Part shown: in pieces, positions 5,794 through 25,470 of the stretch
How positions within the stretch are numbered: position 1 is the stretch's first letter
Layout of the letters: each line of letters opens with the position of its first letter
The notes under the pieces: model-generated
What the model was told of the DNA's origin: nothing
Database searches by the model: none
Seen by the model: only the letters and a program-made list of their open reading frames with translations
Made by a program: the position numbers and the translations under genes
Assembly: GCA_011525905.1 (NCBI GenBank)
Contig: WYBK01000262.1
Span: forward strand, 1 to 32,905
Source of the DNA: Acidobacteriota bacterium
GTDB lineage: Bacteria; Acidobacteriota; Thermoanaerobaculia; Multivoradales; JAGPDF01
Reading direction: 5' to 3'
DNA length: 32,905 nucleotides

Positions 5794-7008
5794 ATGAGCC
5801 TCCCCTTCGATCTCGAGATCCTCAAGCTCGCGAGCATCCCGGTGACCGCCGCCCTCGTGGGTTGGATCACCAACTGGCTCGCGATCAGGATGACCTTCCA
5901 TCCGCTGCGCTTCCTCGGCATCGCCCCCTGGCTCGGCTGGCAGGGGATCGTGCCGCGCAAGGCGGAGAAGATGGCGCGCATCTTCGTCGACTCCTCGATG
6001 CAGCGGCTCGGCTCGGTGCCCGAGCTGTTCGAGGGGATGGAGCCGGAGGTGATCGCGCGCCACGTGCAGCAGGTCTTGCGGCCGCGCCTCGAGCACTACA
6101 CCGACGACGTCATGATCGCGAGCAAGGGCGAGGCCTGGGAGCGCGCGCCGCTCGCCGTCCGGCGGCGCGTCTACCAGGCGGTCGACGAGCAGTTGCCCCG
6201 GCTGGTGCAGAACACCCTCGCCGACGTCGGCGAGCACCTCGAGAGCCTGCTCGACTTCCGGCACATGGTGATCACCCGTCTGGTCCAGGACCGGCGCCTG
6301 CTCAATCGGCTCTTCCTCGAGAGCGGCGCGCGGGAGTTCCGCTTCCTGATCGACTCGGGGCTCTATTTCGGCTTCCTCTTCGGCCTCGTCCAGCTGGTCA
6401 CCTGGTTGCTCGTGCCCGGCCAGTGGCAGCTGCCGATCTACGGCGCGGTGGTCGGCTGGGCGACCAACTGGCTGGCGCTCAACCTCGTCTTCCGCCCGCT
6501 CGAGCCCCGCCGCGTCGGCCCGTTCGTCGTCCAGGGGCTATTCCTGCGGCGGCAGAAGGAGGTCGCTGCGGTCTGGTGCGCGATCGTGACGCGCGAGATC
6601 CTGACGATCCGCCGCTTCATGTCTTCGATGATCACCGGCCCGCACGGCGCGCGGACGCGGCAGACGCTGCTCGAGCATCTCGAGCCGGTGATCCAGGAAG
6701 CGTTGGCCGCGGCCGGGCCGCTGGCGCAGCTGTCGCTGCGCGCGGGCGACCTGCAGAAGATCACCCGCAACTTCGGACGCAAGGCGATCGAGATCTCGGC
6801 CGACCCGTTCGAGGACGAGCGCTTCAACGAGGAGCGCTCGCAGGTGATCGAGCGGATGCTGCGCGAGCGGATGGAGGCGATGCCGCCGGAGCAGTTCCAG
6901 GATCTGCTGCGCCCCTGCTTCAAGGAGGACGAGTGGATCCTGATCCTGCTCGGCGCCCTGCTCGGTTTCCTGGCCGGCGTCGCGCAGATCTATTTCGTCT
7001 TCGGCTGA
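5794..7008 (+). CDS. DUF445 family membrane protein
   Basis: 404 residues. The family hallmark occurs twice: GWITNWLA at residues 23-30 and GWATNWLA at 221-228, each in a hydrophobic segment and each followed by a short basic/aromatic run (IRMTFHPL and LNLVFRPL). This suggests an internal duplication typical of DUF445 proteins. A further hydrophobic segment precedes the second copy (GLYFGFLFGLVQLVTWLLV), and a last one ends the protein (ILILLGALLGFLAGVAQIYFVF). Between them lie long amphipathic helices. The molecular function of the family is not established. The gene diverges from the UbiB-type gene with a 71-bp gap, so they may share a control region. The ribosome-binding site is weak (GAGAAG about 8 nt before the ATG). 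Confidence 0.88.
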   Translation: MSLPFDLEILKLASIPVTAALVGWITNWLAIRMTFHPLRFLGIAPWLGWQGIVPRKAEKMARIFVDSSMQRLGSVPELFEGMEPEVIARHVQQVLRPRLEHYTDDVMIASKGEAWERAPLAVRRRVYQAVDEQLPRLVQNTLADVGEHLESLLDFRHMVITRLVQDRRLLNRLFLESGAREFRFLIDSGLYFGFLFGLVQLVTWLLVPGQWQLPIYGAVVGWATNWLALNLVFRPLEPRRVGPFVVQGLFLRRQKEVAAVWCAIVTREILTIRRFMSSMITGPHGARTRQTLLEHLEPVIQEALAAAGPLAQLSLRAGDLQKITRNFGRKAIEISADPFEDERFNEERSQVIERMLRERMEAMPPEQFQDLLRPCFKEDEWILILLGALLGFLAGVAQIYFVFG

Positions 7009-7044: not shown

Positions 7045-7114
7045 CCGCCGGAATGGGGACTGGCTCCAACTGGGTGCAACGCTCGCCCGAGCAGCACGCT
7101 GACGACCTCTGTGC

Positions 7115-7179
7115 GTGTCCCCCGAAAGTGTCCCCGGTACGTGTCCCCCGTGCGTGTCCCCCGCAGGTGTCCCTGGCCT
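7115..7179 (+). repeat. Five 13-bp tandem units with GTGTCCCC core
   Basis: GTGTCCC recurs at 7115, 7128, 7141, 7154 and 7167, a strict 13-bp period. Four units read GTGTCCCC and the last reads GTGTCCCT. The final three bases of each unit vary (AAA, TAC, TGC, CAG, CCT). The array lies between the DUF445 stop and the M16 peptidase gene, upstream of the candidate -10 at 7218. The core is also found in the arms of the hairpins at 22028-22064 and 25251-25287. Confidence 0.85.
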
Positions 7180-7217: not shown

Positions 7218-7223
7218 TAGATT
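7218..7223 (+). promoter_or_regulatory. Candidate -10 element (TAGATT) for the M16 peptidase gene
   Basis: TAGATT lies 58 nt before ATG 7282 and 38 nt after the 13-bp repeat array, so the array would sit at about -45 to -110 from the transcript start. No -35 box is recognisable. Confidence 0.4.
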
Positions 7224-7281: not shown

Positions 7282-10047
7282 ATGCCGAAAGCCGTTCGCC
7301 AGCTGACCGCCCTCGCCCTGTTGCTGCCGCTCGCGGCGGCGGGAGCCGGCGCCGCCGAAGCGCCCGCCGCTTCGGACGTGCCGAAGGTCGAGTTCGAGAA
7401 GTTCACCCTGCCCAACGGGCTCGAGGTGATCCTGCACGTCGACCGCAAGCTACCGGTCGTCCACGTCAACCAGTGGTACCACGTCGGCTCGAAGAACGAG
7501 AGATCCGGGCGCACCGGCTTCGCGCACCTGTTCGAGCACATGATGTTCCAGGGCTCGGCCAACGCCAAGGAGGAGTACTTCAGCTACGTCGAGCGCGCCG
7601 GCGCCAACCTGTTCGAAGGGGGCGTCAACGGCACGACCAACAGCGACCGGACGAACTACTTCGCGACGGTTCCCTCGGCCAACCTCGAGAACCTGCTCTG
7701 GCTCGAGTCGGACCGGCTCGCCACGCTGCTCGAGGTCACCGACCAGGCGAAGCTCGACAACCAGCGCGACGTCGTCAAGAACGAGCGCCGCCAAGGGCTC
7801 GAGAACGTTCCTTACGGCCGCTGGTACGAGCTGCTGGCCGAGAACCTCTTCCCGGCCGGCCACCCCTACTCCTGGCCGGTGATCGGCTCGATGGCCGACC
7901 TCTCCGCGGCCTCGCTCGACGACGTCAAGGAGTTCTTCCGGACCTACTACACGCCGAACAACCTCTCGCTGGTGATCGCCGGCGACTTCGATCCGGCCGA
8001 GGCCAGGCGACTGGTCGAGAAGTACTTCGGCCCGATCCCTCCCGGCCCGGCGCTCGCCCGTCCGGCGAAGTGGATCCCGAAGCTCGACGGCGAAAAGGTG
8101 ATCGAGGTCGCCGACCGCGTGCCGCAGGAGCGGGTCTACGTCGCCTGGCCTTCGCCCCCGCTCTACGGCGAGGGGGACGCCGAGCTCGACCTCGCCTCGC
8201 AACTGCTCACCGACGGCCTCTCCTCGCGCCTGCAGAAGGCGCTGGTCTACGACCGCCAACTGGCGACTGCGGTCGCCTCCTTCCAGAACTCGCAGGAGAT
8301 CTCGGGCGGCTTCGTGGTGATCGCCACCGCCCGCCCCGGCGCCGAGCTCGCCGAGATCGAGCGGATCCTCGACGAGGAGATCGCCCGTCTGGCCGAAGAG
8401 GGCCCCGACGCGGCCGAGCTGGCGCGCGCCAAGACCAAGGTCGAGTTCCAGTTCGTCTCCGGCCTCGAGCGCATCGGCGGCTTCGGCGGCAAGTCCGACC
8501 GGCTCAACCAGTACAACACCTACCGAGGCGACCCCGACGGCTTCTCCTGGGACCTCGATCGCTACCGGCGCGCCAGCGCCGAGGACGTGCGGCGCGCCGT
8601 CGGCCGCTGGCTCGCTCACCGCGACCGGCTGGTGCTGCGCTTCCGCCCCGAGACTTCTGGGCGGGGCGAGGCGGCCGAGATCGACCGCGCCGCCGTGCCG
8701 CCGCTCGGCGCCGATCGCCCCTTCCGGGCGCCCGAGGTCCGGTCGGGGCGGCTCGCCAATGGCCTGGAGGTCCTGGTCGTCGAGCGCGACGATCTGCCCA
8801 AGGTCGCCGTCGGCCTGGTCACGCGCGCCGGCACCGGCGCCGATCCGGCGGGCAAGGAGGGCGTCGCGAGCCTGACGCTGACCACGATCGACCTCGGCAC
8901 GGCGACGCGCGGCGCCCTCGAGATCGAGCAGGCTCTCGGCGACCTGGGGACCGAGCTCGACGGCAACGCCGGCCGGGAGGCCACGACGCTCGGCTTCGAG
9001 GTGCTGCGACGCCACCTGGACGCGGCGCTCGGCATCGTCTCCGACGTCGTCCAGCATCCGGCTTTCCCCGAGTCCGAGGTCGAGCGGGAGCGCAAGCGGC
9101 GGCTCGACGCGCTGGCGCAGCAAGAGAAGAACGCCAACGCGATCGCCGGTCGCGTGCGCGCGATGCTCGCCTTCGGTTCCGAGCACCCCTACGGCCGGCC
9201 GGCGCAAGGGCTGCCCGCGACCGTCGAGTCGATCACCCGGGCCGACCTGGCCACCTTCCACGCCAGCTACTGGAAGCCGGCGAGCTCGGCCCTGATCTTC
9301 GTCGGCGACCTCGATCTCGAAGGCGCCCTCGCCCTCGCCGAGCGGCACTTCGGCTCCTGGACGGGAGGCGCGGCTCCGGCGCTCGCCGTGCCGACGCCCG
9401 CCCCCGCGACGCCCGGCAAGATCTACCTGGTCGATCGCCAGGACGCGGCGCAGAGCGTCGTCTCGCAATTCTTGCCGGCGCCGCCGCGCGCCAGCGCCGA
9501 CCGCTACGCGCTCGACCTCGCCGACGCGGTCTGGGGAGGCGGCGGCTTCGGCACTCGCCTGAATCTCAACCTGCGCGAGGACAAGGGCTATTCGTACGGC
9601 GTTTTCTCGGCGCTGGCGCGCTACCGCGAGAGCGGGCTCTGGTTCGCCGGCGGCGGCGTCCAGACCGACAAGACCAAGGAGGCCGTGGTGGAGTTCCTCG
9701 CCGAGCTCGAGGCGCTCGCCGGCTCGCGGCCGATCTCGGCGGAGGAGTTCGAGACGGCGAAGCTGCGCAAGGCGCGCGGCTACGCGCAGCAGTTCGAGGC
9801 CTACGAGCGGGTCGGCACCCAGGTCGCCGACCTCTGGGTCGCCGGCCTGCCGATGACCGAGCTGCAAGCCGAGAGCGACGGCATCTCCGCGGTGCCGCTC
9901 GACGGGGCGCGCGCCGCCGCGGCGCGTTGGGCGCGGCCGGGAGCTTCGGCGATCCTGGTGGTCGGCGACCGCAAGAAGGTGGAAGCCGGCTTGCGCGAGA
10001 TCGGCGACGTCGTGGTAATCGACTCGGCCGGCCGGCCGGTGGACTGA
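7282..10047 (+). CDS. Secreted/periplasmic M16 zinc metallopeptidase, two-domain
   Basis: 921 residues. The ATG at 7282 follows a strong ribosome-binding site (GGGAGG, 7272-7277). A signal peptide covers about residues 1-25 (ALALLLPLAAAGAGAAEA). The first M16 unit has the inverted zinc motif HLFEH at 82-86 (His82, Glu85, His86) and a distal Glu168 in KNERR, so it should be catalytic. The second unit begins near VRSGRLANGLEVLVVERDD. At the equivalent place it reads GKEGVASLTLTTIDLG with no HxxEH, as expected for the inactive partner half. It keeps the substrate-binding REDKGYSYG motif (LNLNLREDKGYSYG). The two halves form a clam-shell that degrades peptides. The gene stands alone on its strand and converges with the ICMT-like gene across a GC-rich hairpin. 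Identity is firm; the substrate is unknown. Confidence 0.95.
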   Translation: MPKAVRQLTALALLLPLAAAGAGAAEAPAASDVPKVEFEKFTLPNGLEVILHVDRKLPVVHVNQWYHVGSKNERSGRTGFAHLFEHMMFQGSANAKEEYFSYVERAGANLFEGGVNGTTNSDRTNYFATVPSANLENLLWLESDRLATLLEVTDQAKLDNQRDVVKNERRQGLENVPYGRWYELLAENLFPAGHPYSWPVIGSMADLSAASLDDVKEFFRTYYTPNNLSLVIAGDFDPAEARRLVEKYFGPIPPGPALARPAKWIPKLDGEKVIEVADRVPQERVYVAWPSPPLYGEGDAELDLASQLLTDGLSSRLQKALVYDRQLATAVASFQNSQEISGGFVVIATARPGAELAEIERILDEEIARLAEEGPDAAELARAKTKVEFQFVSGLERIGGFGGKSDRLNQYNTYRGDPDGFSWDLDRYRRASAEDVRRAVGRWLAHRDRLVLRFRPETSGRGEAAEIDRAAVPPLGADRPFRAPEVRSGRLANGLEVLVVERDDLPKVAVGLVTRAGTGADPAGKEGVASLTLTTIDLGTATRGALEIEQALGDLGTELDGNAGREATTLGFEVLRRHLDAALGIVSDVVQHPAFPESEVERERKRRLDALAQQEKNANAIAGRVRAMLAFGSEHPYGRPAQGLPATVESITRADLATFHASYWKPASSALIFVGDLDLEGALALAERHFGSWTGGAAPALAVPTPAPATPGKIYLVDRQDAAQSVVSQFLPAPPRASADRYALDLADAVWGGGGFGTRLNLNLREDKGYSYGVFSALARYRESGLWFAGGGVQTDKTKEAVVEFLAELEALAGSRPISAEEFETAKLRKARGYAQQFEAYERVGTQVADLWVAGLPMTELQAESDGISAVPLDGARAAAARWARPGASAILVVGDRKKVEAGLREIGDVVVIDSAGRPVD

Positions 10048-18983: not shown

Positions 18984-20852
18984 TCAGCCGCCGGTTTCGG
19001 CGTCGCGACAGGCCTCGTAGTCCTCGCAGGCCTGGGGGTGACGCAGGCAGAAGCCGAGGATGCTCTCTTCCTTGTCCCGCAGGCGGTTCTGCCGCTCGTG
19101 CATCCGGTCGGCCAGCGGCTCGAGCTCCTCGATCAGGCGCAGGTAGGCGTAGGCGCCGTCGAGCACGCTCTCGAGCGTCGGCGCGCCGCATCCTTGCAGG
19201 CGCTGGCGGAGCTGCTGGGGTGAGGAGCTCCCCAGGCTCGCGTAGCCGGCGACGAACTGGTCGTAGTAGTTCTCGACCGCGAGCCACTCGCTGCCACCGA
19301 CCGGGGTGTTCGCCGAGGGGAGCAGCCAGGAGGGATCGCCCGACGCGATCTTCTCGAGCTGGCCGGCGTAGTTGAGGAAGTTGTAGAAGCCCGCCAGCTC
19401 GGTGGCGGTCGCGGGCGCACCGGCCAGCCCCGAGGAGAGGACCCCGATCAGGAGCTGCGCGAACCCCCAGAGGTTGCAGTCGCGCATGGCGTGCTCGAAG
19501 TCGCCGGACCACTGCGCTGCCTGAGACTGGAGACGGTCGACTTCGGCGGTCACGCGCAGCAGCTCGGCGGCGTAGAGCCGCCACTGGTCGAGCAACAGGT
19601 CGAGCTGCGCGCGGTCGGGCGCGGTCTCGTCGCAGGGGCGCCGGGGCTCCGGCGGCGGCTCCCGGTCGGGCGGCGGCGGCGGCGGGCAGGCGACGCCCTC
19701 CCGGCAGATGCTCCAGGCGACCTCGGTCCGCGGACAGCAGCCGGTGCAGGCCCCGGAATGAGCGCCGCGCAGGATGCCGCCGCCCTCCACCATCCGCACC
19801 TGCTGATCGGAGCATTCGGCGCCGCCGTAGGAGGGGATCCAACCCAGGACCGCGGAGACGAAGTCGGCGCGCCACGTGGCGCCGTTCGAGCAGGAGATCT
19901 CGAACTCGGCGTCGTCGCGCGGCGCGATGCCGACGATGTAGAGCGTCGCGCCGGTCGGGATGTCCACGCCGAGGATGGGGGCGAAGTCGCGGTCGCTGCT
20001 CTTGTGCCAGGTTCCACCGGCGACTCGAGCGTCCTGGCTCGAGACGTCGGTGACCGTGACCTCGCCCTGACCGCTACAGGTGCCGTAAGCGCTGGTCGAC
20101 CGGAAGACGTTGCGGATCCGAGAGCCTTCCGAAGTGAACCGCGCGAGGGTGCCGCAGCGTACGGTGGTCGGTCGTCCGCTCGCGTCGGCGCCCGGGCAAG
20201 ACAGGGGATAGCGGTACTCGCGCAGGCGCACGTCGATGCTGTAGCTCCACTCGGAGAAGGTTTCGTCGACGGTGCCGAGGTTGCGGCCCGTGATCGTGCC
20301 GGTCCAGAGCGCGCCGCGCTCGCCGTCGGGCGGGTGCGGAGGCGGAGGCGGGGGGGTCGGGGTCGGGATCGGCGTCGGCGTCGGAGGAGGCGTCGGCGTC
20401 GGTGCCGGAGTGGGCGTCGGCGGCGGCGTCGCCGTCGGGCGGACGATCGGCGGCTCTTCCCGCTGTCCGGGAGCGGGCGCGGCGAAGAGCACCCAGGAGA
20501 CCTGGTCGCGGTCGTGCGAGCCCGCTTCGGTCGCGACCACGCCGAGCGAGATGCCGACGATGCGGGCGACAACGATCGCGCCCCCCGCGAGGTGGACCTC
20601 GTCGGTCGCGGTCTGCGACGCCGCCGGCGGGGGCGTGGTGAGGTCACCGAAGGCGATCGCGGCGATCGCCGCGCGCGGCACCGTCGAGCCGGAGAGCCCG
20701 CAGCTCTCCCCGACGCAGGCGGCGAGCGCGCCGGCGCGCTGGGTGCCATCGCGCAGGAAGAGGATGTCGGCGCGCGCGGCGAGCGCGAGCAGGGAGAGAG
20801 CGCTCGCGACGAGCGCGGCACGGCGGTCGGCCCGGCCCCTGCGACTCGTCAT
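18984..20852 (-). CDS. Large secreted protein of unknown function with Pro-Thr linker
   Basis: 622 residues, no recognised family. A signal peptide ends about residue 28 (ALVASALSLLALAARA). Two short beta-rich modules follow: ILFLRDGTQRAGALAACVGE ending VPRAAIAAIAFGD (30-70), and VHLAGGAIVVARIVGISLGV ending RDQVSWVLFA (86-124). They share an LSM-like pattern (hydrophobic, G, hydrophobic, basic residue before the last strand) and may be a duplication. A Pro-Thr linker (about 138-175) leads to a beta-rich region with paired cysteines (YGTCSGQG, GAECSDQQ, SGACTGCCPRTEVAWSICREGVAC). A second proline-rich linker precedes a helical C-terminal domain rich in Gln, Leu and Tyr, ending with CLRHPQACEDYEACRD. 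Probable disulfides suggest an extracytoplasmic location. TAGAAT at 20884-20889 is a likely promoter. Confidence 0.82.
   Translation of the reverse strand: MTSRRGRADRRAALVASALSLLALAARADILFLRDGTQRAGALAACVGESCGLSGSTVPRAAIAAIAFGDLTTPPPAASQTATDEVHLAGGAIVVARIVGISLGVVATEAGSHDRDQVSWVLFAAPAPGQREEPPIVRPTATPPPTPTPAPTPTPPPTPTPIPTPTPPPPPPHPPDGERGALWTGTITGRNLGTVDETFSEWSYSIDVRLREYRYPLSCPGADASGRPTTVRCGTLARFTSEGSRIRNVFRSTSAYGTCSGQGEVTVTDVSSQDARVAGGTWHKSSDRDFAPILGVDIPTGATLYIVGIAPRDDAEFEISCSNGATWRADFVSAVLGWIPSYGGAECSDQQVRMVEGGGILRGAHSGACTGCCPRTEVAWSICREGVACPPPPPPDREPPPEPRRPCDETAPDRAQLDLLLDQWRLYAAELLRVTAEVDRLQSQAAQWSGDFEHAMRDCNLWGFAQLLIGVLSSGLAGAPATATELAGFYNFLNYAGQLEKIASGDPSWLLPSANTPVGGSEWLAVENYYDQFVAGYASLGSSSPQQLRQRLQGCGAPTLESVLDGAYAYLRLIEELEPLADRMHERQNRLRDKEESILGFCLRHPQACEDYEACRDAETGG
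20356..20438. repeat. Low-complexity GTCGGN/GGCGTC tract encoding the Pro-Thr linker
   Basis: On the + strand the tract is made of GTCGGC, GTCGGG and GTCGGA hexamer-like units; on the coding strand these give Pro-Thr dipeptides. Such a tract is prone to copy-number change, so linker length may vary between strains. Confidence 0.7.
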
Positions 20853-22027: not shown

Positions 22028-22064
22028 GGGGACATGTTCCCAGCGCAGCTGGGTACGTGTCCCC
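22028..22064. repeat. REP-like hairpin at the edge of repeat copy A
   Basis: Arms GGGGACATGTTCCCAGC (22028-22044) and GCTGGGTACGTGTCCCC (22048-22064) pair with 2 mismatches in 17, around a 3-nt loop. The equivalent hairpin occurs in copy B. Confidence 0.8.
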
Positions 22065-22119: not shown

Positions 22120-22379
22120 GTCCCAGCGCCGGTCCCCTGGATTCGCCGGCCCACAGACTGCCGCGACGGTTCTCCACCGGATGGGGGAGGAGCTTCTCTG
22201 CGCGCGGCGCTGTCGCGCCGTGCTCGAGAACTTCCCCCGATACGGACCGGCCTCGATTCCGTGCGTTCTGCCGGCGGGCCGGCTCGTTCCGCGCCACGCC
22301 CTTCGAGCTCGTGGATTCGATCGAGCCTCGCATCCGACACTTCACGAACTGCCCCCGGGTCAGCTCGGTCGACGCCACG

Positions 22380-25240: not shown

Positions 25241-25470
25241 CCGTCGGCTCGGGGAGATGGTCCCAGCCCAGCTGGGTCCGTGTCCCCGTCCCCGCGCCCG
25301 CCCCCGCGGTTCGCCGGCCCGCAGACCGCCTCGACGGTGCTCTACCGGATGGGGGGGAAGCTCCCCTGCGCGCGGCGCTGTCGCGCCGTGCTCGAGGACT
25401 TCCCCCAGTACGGACCGGCCGCGACACCCGGCGTTCTGCGGGCGAGCCGGCTCTTTCGACGCCTCGCCTC
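25241..25470. repeat. Dispersed extragenic repeat, copy B (hcrC-hcrA gap)
   Basis: The partner of 22020-22300, in the same orientation and about 50 bp shorter. It begins 5 bp after the stop of the 64-aa gene and ends 5 bp before the hcrC stop codon. A conserved core includes GCGCGGCGCTGTCGCGCC, itself partly palindromic, and TACGGACCGGCC. It carries no recognisable gene. Confidence 0.85.
25251..25287. repeat. REP-like hairpin at the edge of repeat copy B
   Basis: Arms GGGGAGATGGTCCCAGC (25251-25267) and GCTGGGTCCGTGTCCCC (25271-25287) pair with 3 mismatches in 17, around CCA. Position and structure match the hairpin of copy A. Confidence 0.75.

Follow-up and report, generated by a model that had tools for sequence, protein, structure and literature searches.

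A 13-bp tandem array upstream of an M16 peptidase gene in an Acidobacteriota bacterium as a probable solitary arm of a TIR-associated Y1 transposase element

Y1 transposases act on single strands of DNA and read hairpin ends. Within this group, the TIR-associated tyrosine transposases (TIRYTs) were named by Di Nocera et al. (2013), in whose available text the terminal inverted repeats (TIRs) share the motif GGGGWSAS (PMC3733652). Most TIRYTs fall into TnpA-REP subclass 2.1 in the available text of Quentin et al. (2018; PMC6006769).

The window analysed here, i.e. the whole stretch of 32,905 nucleotides from an Acidobacteriota bacterium (assembly GCA_011525905.1, contig WYBK01000262.1), contains a tandem array of five units between a DUF445 family protein gene and an M16 peptidase gene (Table 1). 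As full copies of the same repeat flank a gene for a transposase of single-stranded DNA, the five repeats in the window are most likely the end sequence of a transposon and not a switch for the peptidase gene. In particular, the array is probably the solitary arm of a dispersed non-coding element belonging to a TIRYT.

Table 1 Features of the window around the 13-bp array and the related hairpins
Feature	Position	Strand
DUF445 family protein gene, upstream	5794..7008	+
GGGGACTG, possible remnant of the missing left arm; weak, could be chance	7055..7062	-
13-bp array of five units, read as one TGTCCC-orientation arm of a TIRYT-associated element	7115..7179	+
Array units in order: GTGTCCCCCGAAA, GTGTCCCCGGTAC, GTGTCCCCCGTGC, GTGTCCCCCGCAG, GTGTCCCTGGCCT	7115..7179	+
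First core GTGTCCCC, matching GGGGWSAS on the complementary strand as GGGGACAC	7115..7122	+
Outermost degenerate unit GTGTCCCTGGCCT	7167..7179	+
Two-domain M16 peptidase gene, downstream	7282..10047	+
REP-like hairpin GGGGACA...GTGTCCCC, module H	22028..22064	+
Structured module M, no array behind	22142..22286	+
Second hairpin copy, module H	25243..25296	+
Second module M copy, no array behind	25305..25453	+

The array in the window and its copies in the genome

The five units start at 7115, 7128, 7141, 7154 and 7167, an exact 13-bp step. The strict five-unit array described in the first-pass annotation was borne out by Tandem Repeats Finder (7114-7173, period 13, 4.6 copies, score 78) and lies beyond chance, as none of 60 first-order Markov simulations exceeded three identical 7-mers per run. 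Nowhere else in the window is a 7-mer repeated five times in a row at one fixed spacing (steps of 8 to 30), and the window as a whole has six occurrences of GTGTCCCC against 1.0 expected. Four of the five units contain GTGTCCCC, while the fifth and outermost has GTGTCCCT. Across the units of the window's genome (G000), a set chosen by the presence of TGTCCC, the tenth base (G) is nearly constant too, so that the 13-bp unit is closer to GTGTCCCC-S-G-NNN. No hairpin was found in the window array, whether folded with or without its 5' flank (z -0.77 against shuffles for the array alone), and no hairpin pairing was seen between GGGGACTG at 7055..7062 and the array. Another tandem repeat in the window, GC-rich and with a period of 6/18 (about 4.7 copies of 18 bp), lies at 20356-20439 in a predicted coding region.

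Within G000, the pattern GTGTCCC-N6-GTGTCCC is found at 43 places and its reversed control at none, and GTGTCCCC is found 167 times compared to 12 times for the reversed pattern. The array places form 13 groups, one of them the window array, at 12 distinct sites, because the contig ends C74 and C190 overlap and represent one locus.

Inverted arrays around a Y1 transposase gene

A Y1 (HUH, IS200-like, PF01797) transposase gene of 249 codons with an intact reading frame is located at 7781-8527 of contig C203 (39.9 bits to PF01797, cut-off 23). It has an eight-unit array on its left (minus) and a four-unit array on its right (plus) in inverted arrangement, and these inverted flanking repeats carry GGGGWSAS, as GGGGACAC before the gene and GTGTCCCC after it. 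An alignment of 13 proteins shows no variation at H60, H62 and Y119, residues with a catalytic role in such transposases. In the four transposases scanned against Pfam (E up to 1), Y1_Tnp was the sole match, with no match for the C-terminal helix-turn-helix (HTH) domain of subclass 2.1. Scores to the NCBIfam model of REP-associated transposases, which has a cut-off of 80, were 63 bits for P0001, below that value, and 81.1 bits for the homologue L051. In a tree of 85 rows (13 plus 72, with 8 of 80 loci excluded for stops or length), the four array-flanked transposases form one clade with a support of 99/86. Further related Y1 transposase genes lie at contig ends of G000 (L211 on C134, L031/L046 on C188); upstream of L211 there are GGGTGACAGTTACCTC-type repeats, and L031 has copies of GTGACAGTTACCT, a second core variant in this genome.

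The pattern of three units with TGTCCC and the 13-bp step fixed occurs in 4 of 59 relatives, a class-level scan recovered the same 4 of 148 genomes, and a stricter form was found in 2 of 396 phylum-sampled genomes, a sample in which two of the four array-bearing genomes are not included. These four (G000, G001, G004 and G006) are among eight genomes of one family. Core and step are kept between the species and the linkers change, being S-G-NNN in G000, TTTGT in G001, AAACGAC and GAACGTG in G006 and mixed in G004. Within a genome, the linkers of dispersed arrays are similar to those flanking the transposase (e.g. TTTGT in G001 and AAACGAC in G006). The constant core and step between species, with free linkers, agree with the earlier view of the array as a pattern of repeated binding sites. 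In all four array-bearing genomes, arrays stand on both sides of the best homologue of the C203 transposase. A close homologue is thus present in 4/4 of these, compared to 9/55 array-free genomes with one above about 170 bits (hypergeometric 0.0016); with nine array-free relatives carrying a related transposase, the transposase does not imply arrays.

Homologues elsewhere in the order are accompanied by single inverted repeats, such as GGGGACACAATACGTAATTC or GGTGACAGTTTACTTATATCG. None of 80 homologues from other taxa shows a chain at step 13. The core was found on the left in 54, on the right in 45 and on both sides in 36 of these 80 loci, counts that represent lower bounds because some flanks are short at contig ends. 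In 46 of the 80, there is an inverted repeat with GACA that is 10 bp or longer, and its consensus, AATTCCGGGGACASNATACTTAATT, in which the GACA columns are fixed by the way the repeats were selected, matches the published GGGGWSAS (PMC3733652). In the same loci (L087-L166), bases outside the TIR are also conserved, with a consensus AATT before CCGGGGACA; this may reflect a TIR that extends further, or a target preference for AATT.

In the loci retrieved from the four genomes, 36 groups were counted, of which 23 are two-armed and 13 solo; these correspond to 35 distinct groups and 12 distinct solo arrays when the C190 and C74 ends are taken as one locus. The order of the arms is GGGACA (minus) followed by TGTCCC (plus) in 23 of 23 two-armed groups (1.2e-7 if the order were free), and the spacer between them ranges from 10 bp up to the length of a transposase gene. 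When the 14 two-armed copies of up to 150 bp were folded as single-stranded DNA, 13 did better than their shuffles (z -2.4 to -10.1); L041, a two-armed copy from the window's species, folds no better than shuffles (z -0.69). By exact complementary length, an element's own arms are better matched than the arms of other elements in three of four cases in G004 and two of three in G006 (the third is tied), and in only one of five elements in G000, while the comparison is uninformative in G001, where units are too uniform. Two array-flanked elements of G001, a sister species (L083:580-898 and L183:1062-1454) have a common 243-bp middle with 69% identity, a passenger module different from module M (Table 1).

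Based on these comparisons, a full element would consist of GGGGACAC units, followed by a spacer, a passenger module or the transposase gene, and then GTGTCCCC units. The short terminal repeat GGGGACAC would have been turned into multimeric arrays with a step of 13 bp in this bacterial family, possibly by tandem duplication of the 13-bp TIR block reaching from GGGGACAS to NATAC, and this block is still visible in units of G004 (e.g. GGGACACGATAG and GGGACACAATGA). Where the DNA is single-stranded, for example on the template of the lagging strand, most copies could form a long hairpin by pairing of their arms. The transposase would then recognise the GGGGACA core at the base of the arm and act on the element by binding and cleavage, with movement presumably passing through single strands. 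Judging from sequence, the likeliest binder of the array would be the Y1 transposase whose own gene carries the same arrays. The window copy appears to have lost its left arm and kept the right one; with the right arm alone, folding is probably beyond it, and the copy is likely a remnant that no longer moves and has no role of its own at the M16 gene.

Mosaic modules and alternative origins of the array

The core of the array equals the arm end of the hairpins near 22 kb, as had been stated correctly at first pass. Counting itself, the hairpin near 22.03 kb is matched 36 times in G000. In several places, a hairpin copy and an array are separated by about 200-240 bp that contain the conserved module M (about 165 bp). 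In G000, 16 copies of module M were counted, a lower bound because 40 of the 148 first-look candidates were scored, and an array stands behind 8 of these 16. Copies are found at L212-L228 and at the two window positions of Table 1. In the window, the modules are separate: M twice follows a hairpin without an array, and the array stands without M. As the mosaic modules lie apart, the same core is visible in both the array and the hairpins. The hairpins 15 kb from the array belong to the same mosaic elements as the arrays, and three oddities of the window, namely the 13-bp array and the hairpins at 22 kb and 25 kb, can be explained as pieces of one mosaic family.

Gyrase and IHF are among the host proteins bound by REP/BIME elements. 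The mosaic built from hairpin H and the structured module M could be read as a REP/BIME-like structural repeat that has been domesticated by the host and is no longer moved by a transposase. Module M is strongly structured: in an alignment of 15 copies (a partial sixteenth was excluded), compensatory changes on both sides occur at 11 of 42 predicted pairs, and in percentage paired, both-side changes and covariation score the module surpasses every one of 500 shuffles and every slid control. The number of additional pair types is not exceptional, being reached by 180 of the 500 shuffles, and Rfam at E up to 1 returned no known RNA family. The compensatory changes, like the poorly matched arms in the window's own species, are what a domesticated repeat might show. 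However, no clear copy of M was found in 20 relatives, and its confinement to G000 among 21 genomes, save for a single borderline match of 34 bp in G004, is unlike a conserved host function. In addition, the reading frame of the C203 transposase is intact. A domesticated repeat is consequently improbable, and the species-specific module M could be either a passenger or a structured RNA.

Alternatively, the array could be a passive minisatellite that arose by replication slippage without any link to a transposase. At first pass, absence from relatives together with many copies in 3' regions had been named as a pattern that would favour such a repeat. The array is indeed absent at the orthologous locus and copies are many, but they show no 3' bias. 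The same core and step recur at many unlinked sites in four species with different linkers, pairing is strictly inverted (23/23), and arrays occupy both sides of the transposase gene in 4/4 array-bearing genomes, all of which speaks against slippage, even though the near-uniform units of G001 show that units do duplicate and the window array itself has one degenerate outer unit. Plain slippage as the sole cause, dropped because of the multi-site and multi-species arrays and the 23/23 arm order, is quite improbable. Slippage may, on the other hand, set the number of units in an array.

The position of the array, which ends 102 bp before the M16 start, had also suggested a regulatory function. 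A candidate -10 proposed at 7218 was not supported by a scan limited to promoters of the sigma-70 type, which gave no sites. At the orthologous locus, where a comparison had been recommended, the array is absent within 600 bp upstream, counted from the start of the matched M16 stretch, of five M16 homologues, those of G001, G004 and G006 being 66-75% identical and those of G005 and G007 44% identical. The gene upstream of M16 differs in G001 and G004, and the relatives thus offer no clean empty site for the window array. The proposed genome-wide search for further arrays, which yielded the 12 sites in G000, gave no bias towards either gene end over the groups of the four genomes: of 36 groups, 19 are closest to a gene start and 17 to a stop, with gene calls from a home-made codon-usage scorer. 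A preference for gene 3' ends was considered for distances of up to 30 bp (19 stop-side against 10 start-side) and rejected in view of these nearest-end counts. As the array is absent upstream of the M16 homologues and shows no gene-position bias, promoter regulation of the peptidase is unsupported. A cluster of operators, used by a regulator to control either the M16 gene or a regulon across the genome, would match the constant core and spacing, the location upstream of M16 and the 12 genome sites, but with no sigma-70 site, no array at the five homologues, the 19 to 17 split and arrays on both transposase flanks that are inverted about a centre, it was dropped as the leading reading and is highly improbable.

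Relation to known transposon and repeat systems

IS200/IS605 ends are imperfect single hairpins with guide sequences. The elements described here, of which the window array is probably one arm, have the Y1 HUH domain (PF01797) in common with the IS200/IS605 family and its non-autonomous derivatives, but end in inverted arrays. Like REP, REPIN and BIME sequences with their RAYTs, they occur as intergenic repeats that are dispersed and linked to a Y1 transposase, and they show hairpins and mosaic clusters. In contrast to these, the array units are without a constant GTAG or GGAG foot and without a unit hairpin, and a hairpin requires two opposed arrays.

The TIRYT/TIRtron systems likewise consist of a Y1 HUH gene flanked by GGGGWSAS inverted repeats, a motif which the core fits exactly. 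Their repeats are also dispersed, in the available text as single, dimeric or grouped copies, and here at the 12 sites in G000. A clear difference is that the terminal motif is multimerised here at a strict 13-bp step on both sides, whereas the available text of the publications describes no such array for TIRYTs. In a search of the open-access literature, 13-bp arrays next to transposases of this kind did not turn up, and, by this literature and the 80 homologues, the multimerised 13-bp terminal array is a form new for TIRYTs. TIRYTs are widespread, and a fixed core and step with free linkers points to a recognition determinant, for which natural arrays of two to nine units are ready substrates for multimeric recognition.

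Eukaryotic fold-back (FB) transposons possess long inverted repeats made of short tandem direct repeats. The array elements share this architecture as an analogy, with no homology claimed, and differ in the transposase and in the domain of the host. Perhaps they represent a bacterial counterpart of fold-back transposons, a proposal that we regard as evenly balanced: a TIRYT clade with multimeric 13-bp arrays, in which the opposed arms would close into one long hairpin of single-stranded DNA in several registers, core and step would be fixed by the transposase, and linkers would vary freely and be replaced between species, with structured passengers such as module M.
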